DNA of 64,000 nucleotides, from contig NZ_CP034145.1 of assembly GCF_003856835.1 (NCBI RefSeq), positions 124,001 to 188,000 on the forward strand, given 5' to 3'. Source of the DNA: Haloplanus aerogenes. Lineage in GTDB: Archaea > Halobacteriota > Halobacteria > Halobacteriales > Haloferacaceae. The number at the start of each line of letters is the position of its first letter. The first letter of the stretch is position 1. Made by a program: the position numbers and the translations under genes. A model generated the notes under the pieces. That model was not told the origin of the DNA. It ran no database searches and saw only the letters and a list, made by a program, of their open reading frames with translations. Shown piece by piece: positions 41,745-53,318 of the stretch.

Positions 41745-42857
41745 TTACCCGTCGAGCATCGCATCGACGCCGTCCCGGATCGCGGCGTGGAACCGCTCGC
41801 TCGCGTACCGGTCCCGGGGGAGCGCCGGGCGGTCGTCCCCGTCGATGGCCGCGCTGATCGTCGCGACGGCGTCGGCGGTGGTGGTGAACAGCCGATCCGC
41901 CCGCCAGTCCAGCACCTCGCGCTGCCCGCCCGCGTCGGGCGCGAACGCGACCATCCCCGCCGCGACGTACTCCGCGACCGCCATGCCGAAATGTTCCTCG
42001 GGCTTGCAGTTCAGCCCGTAGCGGTGCGTGGCGAGCAATGTCTCGACCCGTTCGCGAGCGGCGTCGCGGTGGAGGTGGACGTACGACCGCTCGGCCGCCG
42101 CAGCCGCGACCCGCCGGGCGTAGTCGGTGTAGATGGACGACGACGACCCGACGAGGTGGAGATGCAGGTCGTGGCCCCGAGCGCGGATGCCGTCGACGAT
42201 TCGAATCGCCCGGAGCGGTCGCTTGTCGGGAGCGAGGCGGCCGAGGACGACGACACCCGCCTCCCGCTCCGCCCACGGCCGCGGGTTCGGCACGAGGTCG
42301 ACCGGCGGGTGACACACCGCCGGCCGCCGGCCGTAGATGTCCGCCACCGCGTCGGCCGTCCACGCGGAGTTGGCGTAGAGGCGAGCGTCGTCGGGGAGTA
42401 CCCGGTCGCCCACGCCGGCCAACCGACTCCACAGCGGGTCGAGTTGGGGCGTCTCTCCGGCCGTCGTGTATCGGCAGTTGAACTGCGGGAAGTGGATATA
42501 CTGCAGGGAGGGGAGGGGCAAGTCGAACTCGTTGGCGGTGCTGACGGCGGCGTCGAAATCGGCGGCGTGGGGGGCGAACAGCCGCCGGAGGAGGACGCTC
42601 CGCGCCGCCAACTGCGGCCCGAACCGGTCGGGCAGGGCGTCGAACGCCCGGCAGACGAGGCGGGTGCCCGACGGCCGGTGGACGGGGACCTGTGCCGCCG
42701 TGTCGAACAGGGCGTTGAGATCGGAAAGCGACGACCGCGAGAGGGTGAACAGGGTCACGTCGTGGCGGTCCTGCAGCGCCTCGCAGACGTGGAGGCAGAC
42801 GGCGTCGGCCCCGCCGCGCCCGTCGAGCGTGTTGTGGAGGACCGCCACCCGCGCCAT
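41745..42857 (-). CDS. Glycosyltransferase family 4 protein
   Basis: A 370-residue GT-B fold glycosyltransferase. Family features are the N-terminal glycine loop (LDGRGGADAVCLHV), the donor-domain start VVVLGRLAPDKRPLRAIRIV near 215-235, and the Glu-containing motif PEEHFGMAVAEYVAAGMV near 285-305, which binds the sugar nucleotide. A TATTATATCA element at 42881-42890 supports the ATG at 42857. It is divergent from the oxidoreductase-fusion operon, with 73 bases between, and is probably part of the same island. Acceptor and donor are unknown. Confidence 0.9.
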   Translation of the reverse strand: MARVAVLHNTLDGRGGADAVCLHVCEALQDRHDVTLFTLSRSSLSDLNALFDTAAQVPVHRPSGTRLVCRAFDALPDRFGPQLAARSVLLRRLFAPHAADFDAAVSTANEFDLPLPSLQYIHFPQFNCRYTTAGETPQLDPLWSRLAGVGDRVLPDDARLYANSAWTADAVADIYGRRPAVCHPPVDLVPNPRPWAEREAGVVVLGRLAPDKRPLRAIRIVDGIRARGHDLHLHLVGSSSSIYTDYARRVAAAAAERSYVHLHRDAARERVETLLATHRYGLNCKPEEHFGMAVAEYVAAGMVAFAPDAGGQREVLDWRADRLFTTTADAVATISAAIDGDDRPALPRDRYASERFHAAIRDGVDAMLDG

Positions 42858-42880
42858 GCGGGTGGGTCGGGGACGCCCCC

Positions 42881-42890
42881 TATTATATCA
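42881..42890 (-). promoter_or_regulatory. TATA box for the GT4 gene
   Basis: On the minus strand TGATATAATA lies 24-33 bases upstream of ATG 42857, ideal for a leaderless transcript. Confidence 0.5.
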
Positions 42891-42930
42891 CGCCCCCGGG
42901 ACTTTTCACGACCGCACCCCGCCGAGGGGT

Positions 42931-44916
42931 ATGGAGTGTGCGTTCGTGGGGTGTGGGGCGGTCGCCCGGAAGTACGCACGGGGCCTCGACGCTGCCCCGC
43001 TTTCGGTGACGGCCGTCTGTGACCGGGACGCCGAGCGCGCGGCGACGCTCGCGGCCGACCTCGACGCGACGACGTACGCCGATATCGACGCCCTGCTGGA
43101 CGCCGAAGACGCGCCGCTGATCCTGAATCTCACGAGCCACGAGGCGCACGCCGACGTGACCGAACGCGCCCTGCGGGCGGACCGCCACGTCTGGAGCGAG
43201 AAACCGCTGGCGCTCGACGTGGACGTGGCGCGAGACCTCGTCGCCCTCGCGGAGCGCCGCGGCCTCGCGCTCGGCTGTGCGCCCATCAACCACCGATGCG
43301 AGGCCCAGCGACACGCCCGAACGGCGCTCGCCGACGGCCGCCTCGGGACCGTCCGACTGGCCTACACCCACGCCCACGTCGGCCGGGTGACCGAGTGGCA
43401 CGACGCTCCCGACTCGTTCCTCCGGGTCGGGCCGCTGTACGACGGCGCGGTCTATCCGCTCTCCCTCCTCGTGGCGTGGTTCGGTCCCGTCGAGCGGGTG
43501 CGGACGGCCGACGCCGCGACCCCGTGGCCGGATCGCGAGGCACGCCGACCGGAGCGGCCGAGTCACGTCGAGACGACGCTCGATTTCGCGTCGGGACCGC
43601 TAGTTCGCCTGACGGCGAGTTTCTACGCTCCCCACCGGAGCCGGGAGTTCACGAGCCTCGAGTGTCACGGCGACGACGGCTCGCTGTACCTCGACGACGC
43701 TGGCGACCTCGGCGGCGAACCGGGCCACCGCGTCGCCTTCGGGCGGCAGGGGCGGGCGTACACGCCGATGCCCCTCCAGCATCCTTCGCGCCGGACGCCC
43801 TACCTCGCCGGGCCGGAACGGCTGGCCGCGAGTGTCCGGCGGGGGCGTCCGGCGCGGGACACCGCCCGTCGCGCTGCCCACGTCGTCGCCGTCTGTAACG
43901 CGGTGGAGCGGGCCGCAGAACGAGGAATGGCCGTCCCCGTCGACGGCCACGGCGTCCGCCGCCCCGACCGGCGGCTGGCGGTGTGGGGCCGAGGTGGCAC
44001 GGACGAGGGTGACGGCCGATTCGTCGGCCCACCCGACGCCGCGCTCCGCCTCCCGCCAGTCGGGTTCGGCTGTTCGCGCTACCGCGACGGGGAGTACGTC
44101 GACCGCCGCGACTCCATCGAACGGGCGCTCGACGCCGGCTACCGTTTCCTCGACTCCGCGGAACTGTACGGCAACGAAGCGCGGCTCGGGGAGATTCTGG
44201 CCGCGCCGGGGAGCCCCGACCGTGAATCGCTCTTGCTCGCGAGCAAGGTGTGGAACACGAACCACGCCCACGTCGCGGAGGCCTGCGAGACGACGCTAGC
44301 GGACCTCGGCGTCGACGCCCTCGACTGCTACCTGCTCCACTGGCCGGACGCGTGGGCGTACACGGGGCCGCTGCGTCGCCTCGCGGAGTTGCCAGTCGAG
44401 AAGCAGGAGGCGCTGACATTCCCCGAGGACGCCGACGGCGAGCGAGCGACCGCGGACGTGAGTCTGGCGGCGACGTGGCGACGGATGGAAGCGCTCTACG
44501 ACCGCGGCCTCACGGCGTCGCTCGGGGTCTGCAACGTCGACCGGGCGACGCTCGCGGCCCTCGTCGACGAGGCGCGCGTGCCCCCGGCGGTAGTGCAGGT
44601 GGAGTGTCACCCGTATCGCCCCCAACGTGACCTCGTCTCGTGGTGCCACGAACGGGGAATCCGGGTCGTCGCCCACTCGCCGCTGTCGGCGCCGGGGCTC
44701 CTCGACGACCCCGCCGTCCGCGAGACAGCGGACGAGATGGGCGTCTCACCCGCGGCGGCGGTCCTCGCGTGGCACGTCGAGCGCGGGGTGGTCCCCATCC
44801 CGTCGAGCACCGATCCCGACCACGTCGTCGAGAACCTCGCGGCCGCCAGTCATCGTCTCCCGGACGAGGGGCGCGAGCGGCTGGCGGCGCTCGAAGATCC
44901 GGAGTTCGAGCGATGA
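42931..44916 (+). CDS. Fusion of Gfo/Idh/MocA dehydrogenase and aldo/keto reductase
   Basis: One uninterrupted 661-residue frame encodes two oxidoreductases. Residues 1-~340 are a Gfo/Idh/MocA-type dehydrogenase: Rossmann FVGCGAVARKYARG, EKP at 90-92 (WSEKPLAL) and the GPLYDGAVYPLSLL motif with Tyr in place of the usual His. Residues ~370-661 are an aldo/keto reductase with a complete tetrad: D408, Y413, K439 and H470. A Gly/Asp/Arg-rich linker joins them. ATG 42931 is the only start that gives a normal N-terminus. The stop overlaps the next gene (ATGA). Sequential reactions on a sugar or polyol are likely; the substrate is unknown. Confidence 0.92.
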   Translation: MECAFVGCGAVARKYARGLDAAPLSVTAVCDRDAERAATLAADLDATTYADIDALLDAEDAPLILNLTSHEAHADVTERALRADRHVWSEKPLALDVDVARDLVALAERRGLALGCAPINHRCEAQRHARTALADGRLGTVRLAYTHAHVGRVTEWHDAPDSFLRVGPLYDGAVYPLSLLVAWFGPVERVRTADAATPWPDREARRPERPSHVETTLDFASGPLVRLTASFYAPHRSREFTSLECHGDDGSLYLDDAGDLGGEPGHRVAFGRQGRAYTPMPLQHPSRRTPYLAGPERLAASVRRGRPARDTARRAAHVVAVCNAVERAAERGMAVPVDGHGVRRPDRRLAVWGRGGTDEGDGRFVGPPDAALRLPPVGFGCSRYRDGEYVDRRDSIERALDAGYRFLDSAELYGNEARLGEILAAPGSPDRESLLLASKVWNTNHAHVAEACETTLADLGVDALDCYLLHWPDAWAYTGPLRRLAELPVEKQEALTFPEDADGERATADVSLAATWRRMEALYDRGLTASLGVCNVDRATLAALVDEARVPPAVVQVECHPYRPQRDLVSWCHERGIRVVAHSPLSAPGLLDDPAVRETADEMGVSPAAAVLAWHVERGVVPIPSSTDPDHVVENLAAASHRLPDEGRERLAALEDPEFER

Positions 44917-45644
44917 GGGAGTACGTCTACGAACGGCGGTGGGTGGCCGCGACGGGGACAGTCGGCGTCGTCGCGGCCAGCGTCGCCGTCGGCGGGTGGA
45001 TGCTCGTCGCCGGAGCGGTCGACCACACCGCGGCGAACCGCTGGGTGCTGGTCGCCGGCGTCGTGCTGGCGTACGAAGTCGGCTACCTCGCGTACCACCT
45101 CGACGACGGGACGGCCGCGCTCGCCCTCCCGAACCTCGTCACGCTGGTCCGCGGGGGGTTGTACGCCGCGGCGGCGGGCTTCCTGCTCGTTCCGCCCGCC
45201 CCTGCGGTGCGGTGGGCGCCAGCAGTCTGTTACGGGACGGGCATCGTCCTCGATCTCGTCGACGGGCGCCTCGCGCGGCGGAGGGGGCGAACGACCGACC
45301 TCGGCGCGAAACTCGACCTCGCGTTCGACACGCTGGGCTTTCTGGTCGCGCCGCTGGTCGGCGTCGCGTGGGGGCGGCTCCCGGTCGCGTATCTCTCGCT
45401 CTCGGCGGCGCGGTACGTCTACCGCGCCGGGATCGGCTGGCGGAAGCGCCGGGGACAGCCGGTGAGCGACCTGCCCGAGAGTCGAGTGCGACGGCCGCTG
45501 GCCGCCCTCCAGATGGGCTTCATCACCGTCGCGCTGGCTCCCGTCCTCCCCGTGTCGGTCGTCCACCCGCTCGCGCTCGTCGTCGTCGCCCCGTCGCTCG
45601 CGGTGTTCGCGCGGGACTATCTGGCCGTCACCGGCCGCAGATAA
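44913..45644 (+). CDS. CDP-alcohol phosphatidyltransferase family protein
   Basis: A 243-residue membrane enzyme with six or so transmembrane helices. The complete family signature is present: D114xxD117G118xxA121R122, then G131xxxD135xxxD139, whose four Asp bind two metals. Such enzymes join a CDP-activated lipid (CDP-archaeol in archaea) to a hydroxylated head group, or a CDP-alcohol to a lipid. It is coupled by ATGA to the upstream oxidoreductase fusion and by TAATG to the downstream dehydrogenase. Head-group identity is not predictable. Confidence 0.92.
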   Translation: MREYVYERRWVAATGTVGVVAASVAVGGWMLVAGAVDHTAANRWVLVAGVVLAYEVGYLAYHLDDGTAALALPNLVTLVRGGLYAAAAGFLLVPPAPAVRWAPAVCYGTGIVLDLVDGRLARRRGRTTDLGAKLDLAFDTLGFLVAPLVGVAWGRLPVAYLSLSAARYVYRAGIGWRKRRGQPVSDLPESRVRRPLAALQMGFITVALAPVLPVSVVHPLALVVVAPSLAVFARDYLAVTGRR

Positions 45645-46750
45645 TGTGGATTGGTATCAGGCGGCAGTATGAAGTGACCGGCGCCGCTAGAGCGGGCGTG
45701 ACAGGAAGCGTCGAGGGCGGGCGATCTGGGGTCGATCCACCGGCGAGCGGCCGATCACTCTACTTCGCAGGGCCGCGGACCGTCAGAGTCGAAGGGGAGG
45801 CGGTTCCCGACCCTGCGCCGGACGAGGTGCTCGTCGAGGCGCGCGTCTCGGCGGTGAGTTCGGGCACCGAACTCCTGATCTACCGCGGCGAGATGCCCCG
45901 CGGCCTCGCGGCCGACGAGACTATCGACGCCCTCGACGGCGACCTCACCTATCCGCTCAAGTACGGCTACGCGACGGTGGGCGACGTGGTGGCAGTGGGT
46001 GCGGCGGTCGACGACGCGTGGCACGGGCGGACGGTCTTCGCGTTCAACCCCCACGAGAGCCACTTCACCGCCGAGCCGACCGAACTCGTCCCCGTCCCGG
46101 AGGATCTGTCGCCGTCGACGGCGGCGCTGCTCCCCACCGCAGAGACGGCGACGACGCTCGTCATGGACGGTCGGCCGCGGGTGGGCGAGCGAGTCGTCGT
46201 CTTCGGCGCGGGGATGGTCGGTCTCGTGACGACGAGCGTCCTCGCCGCCTTTCCGCTGGAACGGCTGACGGTCGTCGAACCCGTCGCCCACCGGCGGGAG
46301 ATGGCGGCGACGTTGGGTGCCGACGAGACGCTGACGCCCGCCGAAGCGGCGCAGGTCGGGAAGCGTGGCGACCCGCCGGGAGCCGATCTGGCGTACGAAC
46401 TCTCCGGACGGCCGTCGACGCTCGACGACACCATCGACGCCGTCGGCTACGACGGTCGGGTCGTCGTCGGGTCGTGGTACGGGCGGAAACGCGCCGAGAC
46501 CGACCTCGGCGGCTTCTTCCACCGCAACCGGATCGACATCTCGTCGAGTCAGGTGAGCACGCTCGCACCCGACCTCCGGGGACGATGGACGAAGGAGCGG
46601 CGACTGGACGTGGCGTGGGAGCGCCTGCGCGACGTGGCGACCGAGGAACTCGTGACCCACCGGATCGCCTTCGAGAACGCGTCCGAGGCGTACCGCCTGC
46701 TCGACGGCGGACCGGAGAACGCGCTACAGGTGTTGCTGACGTACGAGTGA
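45644..46750 (+). CDS. MDR-family (zinc-ADH-like) dehydrogenase
   Basis: A 368-residue medium-chain dehydrogenase from ATG 45644, which overlaps the previous stop by one base; GTG 45698 is an alternative start giving 350 residues. The NAD(P) motif is VVFGAGMVGLVTTSVLA. The usual catalytic zinc Cys near the start is missing (SAVSSGTELLIYRG), and no four-Cys structural zinc lobe is seen, so it is a zinc-independent or variant member. It closes the first coupled gene block of the island; the next gene has its own TATA box. Confidence 0.85.
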   Translation: MWIGIRRQYEVTGAARAGVTGSVEGGRSGVDPPASGRSLYFAGPRTVRVEGEAVPDPAPDEVLVEARVSAVSSGTELLIYRGEMPRGLAADETIDALDGDLTYPLKYGYATVGDVVAVGAAVDDAWHGRTVFAFNPHESHFTAEPTELVPVPEDLSPSTAALLPTAETATTLVMDGRPRVGERVVVFGAGMVGLVTTSVLAAFPLERLTVVEPVAHRREMAATLGADETLTPAEAAQVGKRGDPPGADLAYELSGRPSTLDDTIDAVGYDGRVVVGSWYGRKRAETDLGGFFHRNRIDISSSQVSTLAPDLRGRWTKERRLDVAWERLRDVATEELVTHRIAFENASEAYRLLDGGPENALQVLLTYE

Positions 46751-46756
46751 TATAAG
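46751..46756 (+). promoter_or_regulatory. TATA box inside the biosynthetic island
   Basis: TATAAG begins directly after the MDR stop codon and lies 29 bases before ATG 46780, so the PTPS-like, methyltransferase and membrane-protein genes can be transcribed as a separate unit. Confidence 0.6.
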
Positions 46757-46779
46757 TCGGTCGCCTGCCACGAACGGGT

Positions 46780-47157
46780 ATGTACCGGCTCTCGGTCTCG
46801 CGGGATTTCGTGGCGCAACACTTCCTCACCGTGCCCGACCCCGGCCCCGAAGGCGAGGTGCACAGCCACCACTTCGAGGTGGCCGTCCGCCTCGCCGGTC
46901 CCGACCTGAACGAGTACGGCTACCTCGTCGACATCGACGCCGTCGACGCCGCGCTGGACGAGTTGGAGGCCCGGTATCGCGACGCCCTGCTCAACGACCT
47001 GCCGGAGTTCGAGGGGAAGAATCCGAGCGTCGAGCGGTTCGCCCGCCTGTTCGGCGACCGGTTCGTCGAGCGAATCCCGACCGACGTGCCTACGGAACTG
47101 ACCGTCCGCATGTGGGAGGACGAGGACGCGTGGGCGAGTCACGAACGGCCGCTGTGA
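46780..47157 (+). CDS. 6-pyruvoyl-tetrahydropterin synthase/QueD-like protein, Cys-less
   Basis: A 125-residue T-fold protein of the PTPS/QueD family. The zinc ligands are kept: H14 (FVAQHFL), H28 and H30 (EVHSHHFEV). The catalytic Cys that normally lies four residues before the HxH pair is replaced by Glu (E24), so canonical PTPS or carboxy-tetrahydropterin synthase activity is doubtful. ATG 46780 is supported by its TATA box. It overlaps the methyltransferase gene by TGATG and probably acts in the same pathway rather than in queuosine or folate synthesis. Confidence 0.88.
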   Translation: MYRLSVSRDFVAQHFLTVPDPGPEGEVHSHHFEVAVRLAGPDLNEYGYLVDIDAVDAALDELEARYRDALLNDLPEFEGKNPSVERFARLFGDRFVERIPTDVPTELTVRMWEDEDAWASHERPL

Positions 47158-47966
47158 TGGCCTACGACGGGCGGTATCTGGAGGCGAAACGCACCGTCGA
47201 CGACCGCGCCATCGACCGTCGGGTGCGCGACCGGACGCTCGACGAACTCCCCGAGGCGCCGCTGATCGTGGAGGCCGGCGCCGGCACCGGTGCCACCGTC
47301 CCCCGACTGCTCGACTGGGGCGTCACTGCCGGCACGTACCGGGGAATCGACCGCGACGACGACGTGATCGAACTCGCACGGGAGCGACGGGCGGACGAGT
47401 GCGGCGGGGAGCGGACCGAGGCGGGGTTTCGGGTCGACGATCTGAGCGTCCGGTTCGAGCAAGGTGACGCGCTCGCGGCGACGGTCGACGACCCCGTGGA
47501 CCTCGTCGTCGCGCAGGCGTTTCTCGACCTCGTGCCTCTCGACGACGCGCTGGACGCCTTCGCGTCGCTGCTCCGACCCGGTGGGCTGGTGTACGCGCCG
47601 ATCACCTTCGACGGCGAGACGGTGTTCCAGCCCGACCACCCGGTGGACGACGCCGTCGTCGCCGCGTATCACGACGCCATCGACGCCGAACCGGGCCGGG
47701 ACGCTCGCGCGGGGCGACACCTCCTCGACCGGTGCCGCGAGCGTGACGGCGACCTGCTGGCGGTCGGGGCGTCGGACTGGGTGGTCTACCCGCCCTATCC
47801 GGCCGACGAGCGCTACTTCCTCGGGGCGATTCTGGATTTCGTCGCGGACGCGGTGACGGATCGGGTCGACGGCGCGGACGACTGGCTCGACGTCCGCCGT
47901 CGCCAACTCGACGCGGGGTGTCTGAGCTACGTCGCCCACGGGTACGACGTGCTCTACCGGCCGTGA
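47157..47966 (+). CDS. Class I SAM-dependent methyltransferase
   Basis: A 269-residue methyltransferase from ATG 47157. Motif I is LIVEAGAGTGATVPRLLDWG (near 40-59); the acidic ribose-binding residues follow in YRGIDRDDDVIELAR; motif IV-V region is VDLVVAQAFLDLVPLDDALDAF. It is sandwiched between the PTPS-like gene (TGATG overlap) and the membrane protein (GTGA overlap). The family does not reveal the acceptor; within this island a small polar compound or lipid head group is the reasonable guess. Confidence 0.87.
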   Translation: MAYDGRYLEAKRTVDDRAIDRRVRDRTLDELPEAPLIVEAGAGTGATVPRLLDWGVTAGTYRGIDRDDDVIELARERRADECGGERTEAGFRVDDLSVRFEQGDALAATVDDPVDLVVAQAFLDLVPLDDALDAFASLLRPGGLVYAPITFDGETVFQPDHPVDDAVVAAYHDAIDAEPGRDARAGRHLLDRCRERDGDLLAVGASDWVVYPPYPADERYFLGAILDFVADAVTDRVDGADDWLDVRRRQLDAGCLSYVAHGYDVLYRP

Positions 47967-49009
47967 CCGACCGCGGACGGCACCGATGGCGCACGGTCGG
48001 GTGGACGGTCGTCGCCGTCGGCGGCCTCGTGCTCTACCTGCGGACCGTCGGTGTCGACGCCGTCGCGGCCGCGCTCGGACGACTCACACCCACGGACGCC
48101 GCGGTCCTCGTCGGTCTCGGGTGGGTTCCGATCCTGCTGTGGGGCGGGTCGCTCCACCTCGTCCTTCGACGGCTCGACGCGCCGACGACGCTCTCGGCGT
48201 CGATTGGCCTGTTCGCAGCGTCGAGTTTCCTGAACAACGTCACGCCGTTCGGACAGGCAGGCGGCGATCCGGTGAGCGGGGCGCTCGTCGCACGCGTCGA
48301 AGGCGTGCCGTTCGAGCGGGGGTTCGCCGCTATCGTGAGCGTGGGCGCGGCGAACGCCGTCGCCGTCGTCGCTCTCGGCGTCGTCGGCGTGGGCGTCCTC
48401 GTCGGGACGGCAGCCGTCGACGACGCCCTCCTCGTCGCGGTGGGAGCGGGGACGGTGGCCGCGGCGGTGTTGGGCGTCGTCGCCGTCGTCGCGTGGTGGC
48501 GGCGTGAGCGGGTCGTCGACCGTATCGGCGGCGCGCTGGGCGGGGTCCTGTATCGCGTCGGTCGGCCGATACCGGGCGTCGAATCGCCGGCGCCGGATGC
48601 GGTCGTCGCGCGTGGTCGAGGATTCGTCGCGGCGCTGGAGCGGGTGGGCGACTCGCGGCGGCGACTCGCGATCGTCCTCGCTCTCGGTGTCGCCGGGCAT
48701 CTGGCGGTGGCGACGACGCTGTGGCTGTCGCTCGCGGTGCTCAACGCCCCCGTCTCGCTCGCGCGAGTGTTGGTCGTGGTGCCCGTCGCCCGACTCGCGG
48801 GGGCGTCGCCGACGCCGGGCGGCACGGCGAGCGCCGAGGCGCTCCTGACGGGGTTGCTCGTCGCCGTCGGTGGCGTGGAGACGCCCGTCGCCGCCGCCGC
48901 GGCGCTGCTCTACCGCGCCGCCGCCTTCTGGATTCCGACGCTCGGGGGCGGGGTCGTCACCGCGCTTCTGGTCGTGACGAGTGGGGAAACCTACGACTCC
49001 CGGCGGTAG
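47963..49009 (+). CDS. Flippase-like membrane protein (LPG synthase TM/UPF0104)
   Basis: A 348-residue integral membrane protein from GTG 47963, with about eight transmembrane helices. The signature ASSFLNNVTPFGQAGGDPVSG is characteristic of the lysylphosphatidylglycerol-synthase transmembrane domain family, which includes lipid-linked sugar flippase candidates such as AglD-related proteins. The PTPGGTASAEALLTGLL region near the C-terminus is also conserved. It is the third gene of the second transcription unit and may move the island's product or lipid intermediate across the membrane. Its 3' end overlaps the convergent gene by 19 bases. Confidence 0.9.
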   Translation: MTDRGRHRWRTVGWTVVAVGGLVLYLRTVGVDAVAAALGRLTPTDAAVLVGLGWVPILLWGGSLHLVLRRLDAPTTLSASIGLFAASSFLNNVTPFGQAGGDPVSGALVARVEGVPFERGFAAIVSVGAANAVAVVALGVVGVGVLVGTAAVDDALLVAVGAGTVAAAVLGVVAVVAWWRRERVVDRIGGALGGVLYRVGRPIPGVESPAPDAVVARGRGFVAALERVGDSRRRLAIVLALGVAGHLAVATTLWLSLAVLNAPVSLARVLVVVPVARLAGASPTPGGTASAEALLTGLLVAVGGVETPVAAAAALLYRAAAFWIPTLGGGVVTALLVVTSGETYDSRR

Positions 49010-49347
49010 AGGACGACGAGGACGGCGATCAGCGTCACCTGCACCACCTTGTCGCCGATGCCGCCGGGGTTGAGCACGTCCGGCCAGTTCAGGACGAAGT
49101 AGAGGACGACCTGAATCCCCGTGAACGGAATTCCGACGAGATAGAGGAGTCGGCGGCGGAAATCGAGGAGAAAGAGGAAGACGGCGACGAAGAAGGCGAT
49201 GCCGGCGAGGACGAAGCTCACCCCCTGCATGGTGTTCAGCGCGAGGACCCCGAAGTAGAGGTGAACCGCCCCCGTGATAATCGCCAGGACGATGCCAAGC
49301 CAGTGGAGTCGGGTGAGCGACGCCGTCTCGAACGTGGAGCTTCCCAT
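48991..49347 (-). CDS. Small four-helix membrane protein (DUF7475-like)
   Basis: A 118-residue protein with four transmembrane helices (WLGIVLAIITGAVHLYFGV; VSFVLAGIAFFVAVFLFLL; and two more). It is of a haloarchaeal type that I associate with DUF7475, from memory only. A TATTATC element on the minus strand about 26 bases upstream of ATG 49347 supports the start. It overlaps the flippase-like gene tail to tail. Function unknown. Confidence 0.82.
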   Translation of the reverse strand: MGSSTFETASLTRLHWLGIVLAIITGAVHLYFGVLALNTMQGVSFVLAGIAFFVAVFLFLLDFRRRLLYLVGIPFTGIQVVLYFVLNWPDVLNPGGIGDKVVQVTLIAVLVVLYRRES

Positions 49348-49428
49348 GTTCTACGGTATCACGCCACTCGATAATATCGGTTGGGTCGGGGCGTACGCTT
49401 ATCGGCCGCGGGTTCTACGAACGCGGAT

Positions 49429-50151
49429 ATGGGGATCGAGTACGTGCGGCGGGCGGCGACGCCCGCGATATCGGTCGTCGTCCCGTCGGTGCCGGCGTAC
49501 GATCACGAACCGACCATCACCCGTCTGGAGAGACAGGAACTGGACGCCCCCTACGAAATCGTGCTGGTCGACGACGGAGAAATCGACCGGTCGGCGGCAC
49601 GAAATCGGGGGCTCGAGGCGGCGTCGGCCGACGTGGTCGCGCTGACGGACGACGACACGCGGCCGCCGGACGACTGGCTGGCGACCGCGCTGGCGGCGTT
49701 CGAGGCCGATCCCGATCTGGTCTGTCTCGAAGGGCCGGTGTACGGCGGGTGTCGGAGCTTCGGTCCCCGCCACTACGTCGGCTGTAACCTCGCGGTGCGG
49801 CGGGGGGCGGCGATCGATGTCGGCGGCTTCCGATCGACGTTCTCGGAGTGGCGCGAGGACGTCGAGTTCGGGTGGCGAATGGAGGCCGAGGCCGACGGCC
49901 ACTGTCGGTTCGAGCCGTCGTTCCGGATGTGTCATCCGGAGGTGCCGCGGACGGCGTTCGACGCGGCGCTGGAGCGACGGCTGAAAGGCGAGTATCCGGA
50001 GCGGTACGCGGCGGTGATGGACGTGACGCTGACCCGGCGGCTCTACCGGCGGGCGCGGGCGGCGGGGATCACCCAGCCGATCCAGCGGGTGCGAAACGCG
50101 GTCGGGCGACGAATCTGGGGCGAGTGTCGCGGAGCGGGGCGGTTCGACTGA
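49429..50151 (+). CDS. Glycosyltransferase family 2 protein
   Basis: A 240-residue GT-A glycosyltransferase. ISVVVPSVPAYDHEPTI begins the nucleotide-sugar domain, LTDDDTRPPDDW holds the metal-binding Asp cluster, and WREDVEFGWRME provides the catalytic Glu/Asp. Length is short but complete for a soluble GT2; there are no membrane helices. ATG 49429 follows a CTTAT element at 49399-49403. It is the last gene of the island. Its stop codon (50149-50151) overlaps the first base of the second palindromic element. Confidence 0.9.
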   Translation: MGIEYVRRAATPAISVVVPSVPAYDHEPTITRLERQELDAPYEIVLVDDGEIDRSAARNRGLEAASADVVALTDDDTRPPDDWLATALAAFEADPDLVCLEGPVYGGCRSFGPRHYVGCNLAVRRGAAIDVGGFRSTFSEWREDVEFGWRMEAEADGHCRFEPSFRMCHPEVPRTAFDAALERRLKGEYPERYAAVMDVTLTRRLYRRARAAGITQPIQRVRNAVGRRIWGECRGAGRFD

Positions 50152-50851: not shown

Positions 50852-50939
50852 GGGCGTCGCCTACGGCTGACACTCCCTCTCCGTACGCTCGCTCTTTAAA
50901 TATGAAAGTTCATGCAAAATATGCGCGGTGCGTCGACTC

Positions 50940-50944
50940 TATAT
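50940..50944 (+). promoter_or_regulatory. TATA box for GAPDH operon
   Basis: ACTCTATATGAGG puts TATAT at 50940-50944, 27 bases before ATG 50967. The nearby TTTAAATAT at 50895-50903 probably serves the divergent small membrane-protein gene. Confidence 0.5.
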
Positions 50945-50966
50945 GAGGGAGAGATCAACCGCCTGT

Positions 50967-51959
50967 ATGATCCGCGTAGGCGTTAATGGGTACGGTACCA
51001 TCGGTAAGCGCGTTGCCGATGCAGTGAATTCGATGCCCGACATGGAGTTGGTGGGCATCGGCAAGGCCAGTCCGAACCACACGGCGGACGCAGCCGCGGA
51101 CCGGGGCTACGACATCTACGTCCCCGACGGGCGGGAAGACCGCTGGGAAGACGTGGGCATGGACGTCGCGGGCGACATCGAGGCCCTGATCGACGCGAGC
51201 GACATCGTCGCGGACGCGACGCCGGCGGGCATGGGCGCGGAGTACCGCCCCATCTACGAGGAGCACGACACCCCCGCCCTGTTCCAGGGTGGCGAGGGCG
51301 CGGACGTGGCGGAGGCGAGCTTCACCGCCCGTGCCAACTACTCGGAAGCGACGGACAAGGACTACGTCCGCATCGTCTCCTGTAACACGACGGGTCTGAA
51401 CCGGATGTTCGCGCCGCTCCACGAGGAGTACGGCGTCGAGCGCGCGAGCATCACGCTCGTCCGCTGTCGCGGCGAGCACGCAGTCATCTCCGCGGACCCG
51501 GTCACGCTCCCCTCGCACCACGGCCCGGACGCCCTCGAAGTCATCCCGGACATGGGTCCGATCACGACGATGGGCATGAAGGTGCCGACGGTGCGCCACC
51601 ACTTCCACGGCATCAACGTGGAACTCGGCGCGGAGCCGAGCGCCGAGGAGGTCCGCGACCTGCTCGCCTCGCAGTCGCGCATCCACGTTATCGACGGCGA
51701 CCTGGGCATCGACTCCGGCTGGGAACTGCAGGAGTTCGCCCTCGACCGCGGCCGGGACCGGATGAACCTCTACGAGAACCAGATCTTCGAGGACTCCATC
51801 AGCATGGACGGCCAACAGCTCCACCTCTTCCAGTCCATCCACCGCGAGAGCGACGTGGTTCCGGAGAACGTCGACGCCATCCGTGCGATGATGGGCGAAG
51901 CCGACGCGGAGGAGAGTATCGAACTGACGAACGAAGTGATGGGCATTGGCGACATCTAA
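50967..51959 (+). CDS. gap: Type II glyceraldehyde-3-phosphate dehydrogenase
   Basis: A 330-residue archaeal (type II) NAD(P)-dependent GAPDH. The nucleotide motif is VGVNGYGTIGKRVADAV; the nucleophile Cys is in RIVSCNTTGLNR and the catalytic His in VRHHFHGINVEL. ATG 50967 has a TATA box 27 bases upstream and is preferred over the upstream ATG at 50928. The stop codon directly abuts the ATG of the next gene, a PEP-synthase-like protein, so the two are almost certainly co-expressed. Haloarchaea use type II GAPDH mainly in gluconeogenesis. Confidence 0.95.
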   Translation: MIRVGVNGYGTIGKRVADAVNSMPDMELVGIGKASPNHTADAAADRGYDIYVPDGREDRWEDVGMDVAGDIEALIDASDIVADATPAGMGAEYRPIYEEHDTPALFQGGEGADVAEASFTARANYSEATDKDYVRIVSCNTTGLNRMFAPLHEEYGVERASITLVRCRGEHAVISADPVTLPSHHGPDALEVIPDMGPITTMGMKVPTVRHHFHGINVELGAEPSAEEVRDLLASQSRIHVIDGDLGIDSGWELQEFALDRGRDRMNLYENQIFEDSISMDGQQLHLFQSIHRESDVVPENVDAIRAMMGEADAEESIELTNEVMGIGDI

Positions 51960-53318
51960 ATGACGGCAAACGAGACCGAGGCAGTCGACGAGGAGTTGGA
52001 ACCGGGCACGGAACTGACGTCGGGCTACGGATCGAGTCCGGGGGTCGCGACAGGACCCGTCAAGATTATCGAGGACATCGAGGAAGCCGACCGGATCGAC
52101 GAGGGTGACGTGATCGTCACCGAGATGACGGCGCCGGACATGGTGCCCGCGATGAAGCGCTCGGCGGGCATCCTCACCGACGAAGGTGGAATGACCTCCC
52201 ACGCGGCCATCGTCTCGCGCGAACTCGGCGTGCCGGCCATCGTCGGCTGTGGCGACGCGACCGACGTGCTGACCGACGGCCAGCGCATCACGCTCGACGG
52301 CCAGAAAGGCACCGTCGTCGTCGCCGAACCCGAAACCGAGACGGTCGAAGACGCCGAACCCGAGGGGGACCGCGAGGTCGAGGGCGGCAGCGGCGGCCCG
52401 CCGACCACGGCGACCGAGGTGAAAGTGAACGTCTCCATCCCGGACGCGGCCCAGCGCGCCGCCGACACCGGCGCCGACGGCGTCGGTCTCCTCCGACTGG
52501 AGCACATCCTCCTCTCGACGAGCAAGACGCCCGAGAAGTACGTCGCCGACCACGGCGAGGAGGCGTTCGTCAAGGAGATTTCCGAGGAGATCCGGAAGGT
52601 GGCCGACGCGTTCTACCCGCGGCCGGTCCGCGCTCGGACCCTCGACGCGCCGACGGACGAACTCGCCGAGTTGGAAGGTGGGGAGAACGAACCCCACGAA
52701 CACAACCCGATGCTCGGCTACCGCGGCATCCGCCGGTCGCTGAAAGAGCCCGAGATGTGCAAACTCGAACTCCGCGCGTTCAAGCGCCTGCACGACATGG
52801 GCTACGACAACGTCGAGGTCATGTTCCCGCTCCCCAACGACGCCGAGGACGTGCGTCGGGCGCGGGAACTGATGGAAGAGGTCGGCATCGACCCCGAGAA
52901 GCGCCGCTGGGGCGCGATGATCGAGACGCCGGCCAGCATCCGATCCATCGACGAAATCCTCGACGAGGGCATCGACTTCGTCGCCCTCGGGACGAACGAC
53001 ATCGTCCAGTTCATGCTCGCGGTGGACCGCAACAACGCGAACGTCGCGGACCGCTTCGACGACTTCCACCCCACCATCCTGGAGGCGATGGCGAACGTCA
53101 TCGAGGCGTGTAACGAACGCGACGTGGACACGACGATCACCGGCCAGTCCGGCTCCCACCCCGACATGGCGAAGTTCCTCGTCGAGAAAGGCATCAGCTC
53201 CCTCTCCTCGAACATCGACGCCGTCGGCGAGGTGCGCCGCGTCGTCGCCCGCGCCGAGCGGAAACTCCTGCTCGACGCCGCCCGCGAGAACCTCGACGAC
53301 GACCCGCAGATCGACTGA
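51960..53318 (+). CDS. PEP-synthase-like protein lacking the ATP-grasp domain
   Basis: A 452-residue protein matching the central and C-terminal parts of PEP synthase/pyruvate phosphate dikinase. The swivelling phosphohistidine domain has GGMTSHAAIVSREL with H81; after an acidic linker (~120-155) the TIM-barrel PEP-binding domain has RARTLDAPTDE, NPMLGYRGIR, MIETPAS and the Asn-Asp of FVALGTNDIVQF. The N-terminal ~350-residue ATP-grasp domain is absent, and the acid/base Cys of ICGQ is replaced by Thr (T394 in ITGQ). It starts immediately after the GAPDH stop. It is probably not a stand-alone PEP synthase; a regulatory or partner-dependent phosphocarrier is possible. Confidence 0.85.
   Translation: MTANETEAVDEELEPGTELTSGYGSSPGVATGPVKIIEDIEEADRIDEGDVIVTEMTAPDMVPAMKRSAGILTDEGGMTSHAAIVSRELGVPAIVGCGDATDVLTDGQRITLDGQKGTVVVAEPETETVEDAEPEGDREVEGGSGGPPTTATEVKVNVSIPDAAQRAADTGADGVGLLRLEHILLSTSKTPEKYVADHGEEAFVKEISEEIRKVADAFYPRPVRARTLDAPTDELAELEGGENEPHEHNPMLGYRGIRRSLKEPEMCKLELRAFKRLHDMGYDNVEVMFPLPNDAEDVRRARELMEEVGIDPEKRRWGAMIETPASIRSIDEILDEGIDFVALGTNDIVQFMLAVDRNNANVADRFDDFHPTILEAMANVIEACNERDVDTTITGQSGSHPDMAKFLVEKGISSLSSNIDAVGEVRRVVARAERKLLLDAARENLDDDPQID

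Follow-up and report, generated by a model that had tools for sequence, protein, structure and literature searches.

The genes considered here lie in a 64,000-nucleotide stretch of Haloplanus aerogenes (NCBI RefSeq assembly GCF_003856835.1, contig NZ_CP034145.1, positions 124,001 to 188,000; the whole stretch is referred to as the window) and encode a fusion of Gfo/Idh/MocA and aldo-keto reductase (AKR) domains, a CDP-alcohol phosphatidyltransferase (CDP transferase), a medium-chain dehydrogenase/reductase (MDR), a PTPS-like T-fold protein, a methyltransferase (MT) and a flippase-like membrane protein. The closest described systems each resemble a part of this operon. Archaetidylinositol phosphate, phosphatidylinositol phosphate (PIP) and phosphatidylglycerophosphate (PGP) synthases share the four-Asp motif and helical-bundle fold of the CDP transferase, but they have different gene partners, and the curated models of archaetidylinositol phosphate and PIP synthase score it far under cut-off. 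PGP and PIP synthases move a phosphatidyl group from CDP-diacylglycerol onto an alcohol phosphate. The T-fold protein has the fold of QueD. The MDR, which has no zinc ligands, has BchC as its nearest curated model (72.5 bits, cut-off 291); no bacteriochlorophyll genes lie in its neighbourhood. GTP cyclohydrolase (GCH) IIa performs the first step of archaeal riboflavin and F420 synthesis, and partners of the gene set in other genomes share the first steps from GTP with archaeal ArfA/GCH IIa and bacterial RibA/RibD; the later riboflavin enzymes do not belong to the cassette. The set as a whole most resembles bacterial MDR-PTPS-GT4-MT clusters (GT4, GT2: glycosyltransferase families), which encode the T-fold subfamily of SCO6650 (PDB 3D7J, an entry labelled uncharacterised) and of which Streptomyces fungicidicus has the same gene set.

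Comparison across genomes identifies a core of this operon that is inherited as a unit in haloarchaea and recurs in bacteria. With chances that we put a little below even, it is a cross-domain cassette for a GTP-derived (diaminopyrimidine or pterin-like), glycosylated and methylated head group on a membrane lipid.

A co-inherited gene set in haloarchaea

The set was followed through 118 haloarchaeal genomes, with gene order compared in 35 loci. Of 84 genomes with the MDR or T-fold gene, 82 have both (Fisher p = 2.5e-27, computed across the 118 genomes and uncorrected for relatedness), the T-fold gene is present in all 76 genomes with the CDP transferase, and the CDP transferase is found in 76 of the 83 genomes counted as having the module. 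The order GT4< fusion> CDP> MDR> PTPS> MT> recurs within the genus and also in several genera and families beyond it. In a second arrangement, fusion, DUF7475 and CDP transferase genes form one side, and a divergent phosphatase/sulfatase-like gene, MDR, PTPS, GT4 and MT form the other; the DUF7475 family repeatedly adjoins the CDP transferase gene in other loci too. The six linked genes keep company despite this reshuffling. Where modules are split, the CDP transferase gene is usually beside MT while MDR, PTPS and GT4 remain together elsewhere; otherwise MT neighbours PTPS or GT4. Because of this co-occurrence and linkage, also in split loci, the functional core is taken as the CDP transferase, MDR, T-fold protein and MT, usually with a GT4, and it is inherited as a set. 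With co-inheritance and repeated adjacency in different families, the arrangement lies far outside what chance would produce. The first-pass annotation, made from the sequence alone, had proposed a biosynthetic set whose gene order should be sought in other haloarchaea, and the set is kept well beyond close relatives, across haloarchaeal families and in bacteria.

The halves lie far apart in several genomes, as would be expected of two unrelated adjoining operons, one with the fusion and CDP transferase and one with MDR, T-fold protein and MT. However, among the 118 genomes the CDP transferase never occurs where the T-fold gene is absent, nor the fusion where the MDR is absent (38/38), and the CDP transferase is joined to MDR-PTPS in Actinobacteria and Proteobacteria also, which leaves a chance pairing of two operons highly improbable. 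The genes almost certainly form one functional module.

The fusion was originally placed within the set, and its tie to the CDP transferase stands (within 8 kb in 32 of 35 cases). It is present in 38 of the 118 genomes, almost full length in most; since these are only 38 of the 83 genomes with the MDR, it is an accessory of the CDP transferase and not the defining enzyme. The AKR motifs are kept in ~91% of 34 fusion homologues. In one genus (3 loci) the AKR half is truncated or degenerate with the Gfo/Idh half retained, a hint that the AKR step can perhaps be lost, and the fusion of Haloarcula pelagica has a similarly shortened AKR half.

About 16 of the examined haloarchaeal loci keep the divergent GT4 in place. 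Its similarity to the GT4 that sits between PTPS and MT elsewhere is distant (E 4e-4 to 0.012), so orthology of the two is unsupported; as it is not close kin of the GT4 in other loci, it is probably a replacement, judging from sequence comparison. The flippase and GT2 had been counted as parts of the toolkit, but in these loci they occupy this spot in congeners only; they are local additions in haloarchaea and fall outside the core.

Bacterial counterparts

Searches of plasmids, with the MDR and PTPS sequences as queries, led to the bacterial clusters. The order MDR-PTPS-GT4-MT occurs in Methylosinus, Neorhizobium, Thiodictyon, Agrobacterium, Rhizobium, Peteryoungia and Streptomyces, and MDR-PTPS-MT with RibD occurs on a Rhodobacteraceae plasmid and in Palleronia. 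A Microbacterium plasmid carries CDP> MDR> PTPS> GT4> MT> flippase>, with RibD on the opposite strand; this is the order of the window with an inserted GT4, conserved across domains. In rhizobia, sulfatase, flippase, CDP transferase and RibA genes lie beside MDR-PTPS-GT4-MT-RibD. The same flippase family thus adjoins the cassette in Microbacterium and rhizobia, although similarity to the flippase of the window is limited to the superfamily level and does not support orthology.

Scanning a single genome of each species gave at least 577 bacterial loci encoding the bacterial T-fold subfamily. Neighbours were counted in the best 80 of these, several on short contigs: GT4 in 78, MDR in 76, MdoH-like GT2 in 70, MT in 69, RibD in 49 and RibA in 33. 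A cytochrome b561 gene lies near the cassette in 34 of the 80, often next to RibD, which may hint at a redox-active product. In two Paracoccaceae, MDR-PTPS-MT-RibD is accompanied by a ribokinase and an MtnA-type isomerase replacing GT4 or MdoH. On two Streptomyces plasmids, a PTPS relative from the same subfamily stands alone, with the module absent and with cupin and MEKHLA-domain genes nearby.

The MdoH-like GT2 is present in none of 8 bacterial loci with the CDP transferase versus 72 of 82 without it (p = 5.6e-7, relatedness not corrected); the two are mutually exclusive, as if they were alternative finishing enzymes. This exclusivity, together with the nearby GT4 and sulfatase/phosphatase-type genes, is what would be expected if the product were a secreted or surface glycan with a GTP-derived decoration, for which the CDP transferase would provide the lipid carrier or primer, a part played in proteobacteria by the MdoH-like GT2. 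We consider this distinctly unlikely, given that the CDP transferase is near-universal in the haloarchaeal module (76/83) and that polymerase, ligase or transporter genes show no consistent linkage.

A T-fold subfamily distinct from QueD

The T-fold protein is annotated as QueD in public records. Its AlphaFold2 model (pLDDT 97.0) matches SCO6650 best (TM 0.92, compared with about 0.80 for QueD/PTPS), and SCO6650 is also its best sequence match, at 27% identity. The absence of the catalytic Cys, as previously suggested, is confirmed in alignments, and the Asp-His pair of PTPS/QueD is absent as well. Haloarchaeal members keep the metal-site residues His14, His28 and His30 (HSH), and Glu113, the base-anchoring residue of the fold, is present in 28 of 28 aligned sequences; bacterial members, including the SCO6650 branch, additionally lack the third metal-site His and have HGA in place of HSH. 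A tree of the T-fold proteins, built on a short alignment of 133 columns, without a root and not settled throughout, divides cleanly into a haloarchaeal and a bacterial clade (100/100). This split makes recent transfer between the groups unlikely, and a single recent passage from bacteria to haloarchaea is unsupported.

Assignment as QueD can be rejected. The protein lacks the CxxxHGH motif that defines QueD/PTPS-I (PMC5041015) and scores 42.6 bits against the curated QueD model, where 89.25 are needed. The window genome has no true QueC (marginal matches only) and no second PTPS-family protein, and genomes with QueC have a distinct QueD gene beside it. Eight congeneric genomes, that of the window included, are without a true QueC or another PTPS, and in three congeners QueC adjoins a QueD-like gene, so that the synthesis of archaeosine precursors looks uneven across this single genus. 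On pNG700 of Haloarcula marismortui, no PTPS gene is annotated between MDR and GT4; the match there is partial (residues 18–121), and the gene may be frameshifted in that record.

A soluble pterin, flavin or F420-type cofactor, or archaeosine, has to be weighed as the product, with the T-fold protein acting as QueD or PTPS-IV and the lipid-type genes as bystanders. The T-fold family and GCH IIa are both known from such pathways, and PTPS-IV is said, as unpublished work, to act in F420 synthesis (PMC5041015). The same 2016 review lists a COG0720 subfamily, PTPS-V, without assigned function. Against this, QueC is lacking here and true QueC/QueD pairs are separate elsewhere. Of 94 good haloarchaeal genomes, 93 have CofH-like genes, module-less ones included, so the module is not a requirement for F420; and the CDP transferase is co-inherited as tightly as the T-fold gene. 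A soluble cofactor is therefore a very unlikely product.

Linkage to genes for GTP ring opening

A GCH IIa gene (PF05165) lies within 3 kb of the MDR or PTPS gene in 36 haloarchaeal genomes. It is the sole genomic copy in 27 of these; in the nine genomes with two full copies, one is near the module in every case. Haloarcula sp. GH36 and H. pelagica have the order GT4< fusion> CDP> GCH IIa> MDR> PTPS> MT>. The window genome has a single copy away from the operon (C1:1246656-1247366).

The bacterial cluster RibA and RibD are extra copies, further GCH II and RibD_C genes being present in 10 of 10 bacterial genomes tested. Two cluster RibD proteins that were scanned have the reductase domain only and no deaminase domain. 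Among the cluster RibA copies of proteobacteria, the readable ones have Tyr at the site matching E. coli Tyr105 (33 loci), and the one Streptomyces copy has Met; five loci were unreadable there or aligned over another stretch. A Met paralogue of S. coelicolor, SCO6655, reportedly makes the formylated pyrimidine FAPy (Spoonamore et al. 2006); FAPy is the product of archaeal GCH IIa as well. Streptomyces fungicidicus, Haloarcula sinaiiensis and H. marismortui have a creatininase-family gene close to the cluster. Among curated models this gene matches MftE best, with no cut-off passed, and its superfamily is that of the archaeal deformylase ArfB. In these few loci, the RibA residues and the creatininase genes would suit a diaminopyrimidine phosphate as common intermediate.

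Taken on its own, GTP ring opening probably feeds the module. The first-pass annotation had pictured an unusual polyol or sugar head group. Lipid attachment is indicated, as it supposed, but GCH II/IIa and the RibD-type reductase that accompany the set elsewhere had been missed, and they make a GTP-derived component more likely than polyol or sugar alone. In a head group made solely of sugar or polyol, such as an inositol-like one, the T-fold protein would have been recruited as a binder or isomerase, and the neighbouring cyclohydrolase genes would be incidental. Gfo/Idh, AKR and MDR families do often use sugars and polyols, the predicted fold of the CDP transferase is similar to that of PIP synthase, and the inosose hydrolase IolN is among the creatininase relatives. 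More than half of the module-bearing haloarchaea nevertheless lack the fusion, which would be the main sugar enzyme, and GCH IIa, the bacterial RibA/RibD paralogues and the T-fold point to a purine-derived base; the sugar or polyol alternative is accordingly rated unlikely.

CDP transferase, dehydrogenase and flippase-like protein

The CDP transferase contains the PF01066 motif D-x2-D-G-x2-A-R ... G-x3-D-x3-D. Residues D114, D117, G118, A121, R122, G131, D135 and D139 are invariant in 23 homologues, so all four of the Asp residues that had been noted are kept. Its AlphaFold2 model (pLDDT 92.6) has the helical-bundle fold of the family, with PGP, PIP and phosphatidylserine synthases as best Foldseek matches (probability 0.90–1.00); PGP and PIP synthases are the nearest folds. 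Scores are 24.9 of the 180 bits needed for archaetidylinositol phosphate synthase (NF040950) and 28.8 of 170 for PIP synthase (NF045883). By analogy with these enzymes, a ribityl-pyrimidine phosphate or a similar phosphate-bearing polyol would be a fitting acceptor. On balance, the haloarchaeal product is rather likely to be joined to a lipid through this enzyme.

The MDR aligns with Ser-Gly-Thr-Glu and Lys-Tyr-Gly-Tyr in place of the Cys and His zinc ligands, in line with its initial description as zinc-less. The flippase-like protein scores 63.1 bits against TIGR00374 (cut-off 43.2).

A possible pathway

The computed module, its conservation and partners, the enzyme families and their active-site states suggest a scheme in which we infer every reaction, the reaction order and the product. 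GTP would first be ring-opened by GCH IIa in haloarchaea (often encoded in the operon; the window genome would use its single copy elsewhere) or by a type II enzyme, RibA, in bacteria, giving a ribosylated pyrimidine (FAPy or the diaminopyrimidine phosphate). A RibD-type reductase in bacteria, or a housekeeping counterpart in archaea, would convert the ribose to a ribityl chain. The T-fold protein might then hold the base via its conserved Glu while it is remodelled together with the zinc-less MDR, after which the GT4 would glycosylate and the MT methylate the product; in lineages with the fusion, the Gfo/Idh-AKR protein could supply or epimerise a sugar or polyol part. The CDP transferase would couple the product to an archaeal lipid phosphate, and the flippase-like protein may carry it across the membrane.

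Several points count against a GTP-derived lipid head group. The window operon contains neither a GCH IIa nor a RibD gene, and as GCH IIa near the module is often the only copy, its linkage could partly reflect its riboflavin/F420 role. Most proteobacterial loci are without the CDP transferase and have the MdoH-like GT2 instead (70/80), so lipid attachment through the CDP transferase is not universal. The Foldseek E-value of the CDP transferase is also weak (7.9e-3); weak values are usual for short helical membrane proteins.

Layout of the locus

Profile scans of the window proteins identified all of the families named earlier. The count of tightly coupled plus-strand genes at 42931–49009 is six, which is also the number named in the first-pass annotation, though it spoke of seven; the overlaps of 1–4 bases and the 29-base gap it described are present. 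The fusion and CDP transferase genes overlap by 4 bp (44913–44916) and the CDP transferase and MDR genes by 1 bp (TAATG, MDR start ATG at 45644). A 29-bp gap separates the MDR gene from the T-fold gene at 46780. The T-fold and MT genes overlap by 1 bp (TGATG, 47155–47159; MT start ATG at 47157) and the MT and flippase genes by 4 bp (GTGA, flippase start GTG at 47963). The flanking divergent GT4 and downstream GT2 are as described, with a DUF7475 gene between flippase and GT2 that had gone unmentioned (Table 1). Further downstream, a type II GAPDH-like gene (50928–51959) immediately precedes a plus-strand gene (51960–53318) for the C-terminal half of a PEP synthase-type enzyme on its own, with PEP-utilizers mobile and PEP-binding domains and no ATP-grasp half.

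Table 1. Genes of the module and its flanks, in window coordinates
Feature	Coordinates	Strand	Assignment and remarks
GT4 glycosyltransferase	41745-42857	-	Pfam Glycos_transf_1; divergent from operon
Gfo/Idh/MocA-AKR fusion	42931-44916	+	Pfam; Gfo/Idh half ~1-340, aldo-keto reductase half ~372-655
CDP-alcohol phosphatidyltransferase	44913-45644	+	PF01066; predicted lipid-attachment enzyme
Zinc-less MDR dehydrogenase	45644-46750	+	ADH_zinc_N; core gene
PTPS-like T-fold protein	46780-47157	+	PF01242; core gene
Class I SAM-dependent methyltransferase (MT)	47157-47966	+	Pfam Methyltransf_12/25/11; core gene
LPG_synthase_TM flippase-like membrane protein	47963-49009	+	PF03706, TIGR00374 above cut-off
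DUF7475 small membrane protein	48991-49347	-	PF24287; between flippase and GT2
GT2 glycosyltransferase	49429-50151	+	PF00535; not core

Implications

The claim of a conserved biosynthetic set that has apparently gone undescribed holds up, and its CDP transferase points to lipid attachment. Literature searches found no description of the gene set, with an earlier mention possible in the primary COG0720 (PMC3262898) or SCO6650 papers. A second review cites the COG0720 paper for the deletion of arfA in Haloferax volcanii, and the proximity of arfA and PTPS may thus have been remarked on already.

The set is present in ~70% of the haloarchaeal genomes sampled and in many common soil, plant-associated and freshwater bacteria, and the routine QueD label of its T-fold gene is wrong for this subfamily. 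If the proposed pathway is correct, a nucleotide-derived head group would join the known polar lipids or glycoconjugates, the extra ribA and ribD copies of many bacteria would have a reason, and SCO6650, still uncharacterised although its crystal structure dates from 2008, would gain a role. A bolder suggestion, which we regard as doubtful but worth stating, is that the pathway is ancient and common to haloarchaea, Actinobacteria and Proteobacteria, and that its product may represent a new class of nucleobase-derived and possibly redox-active polar lipid.

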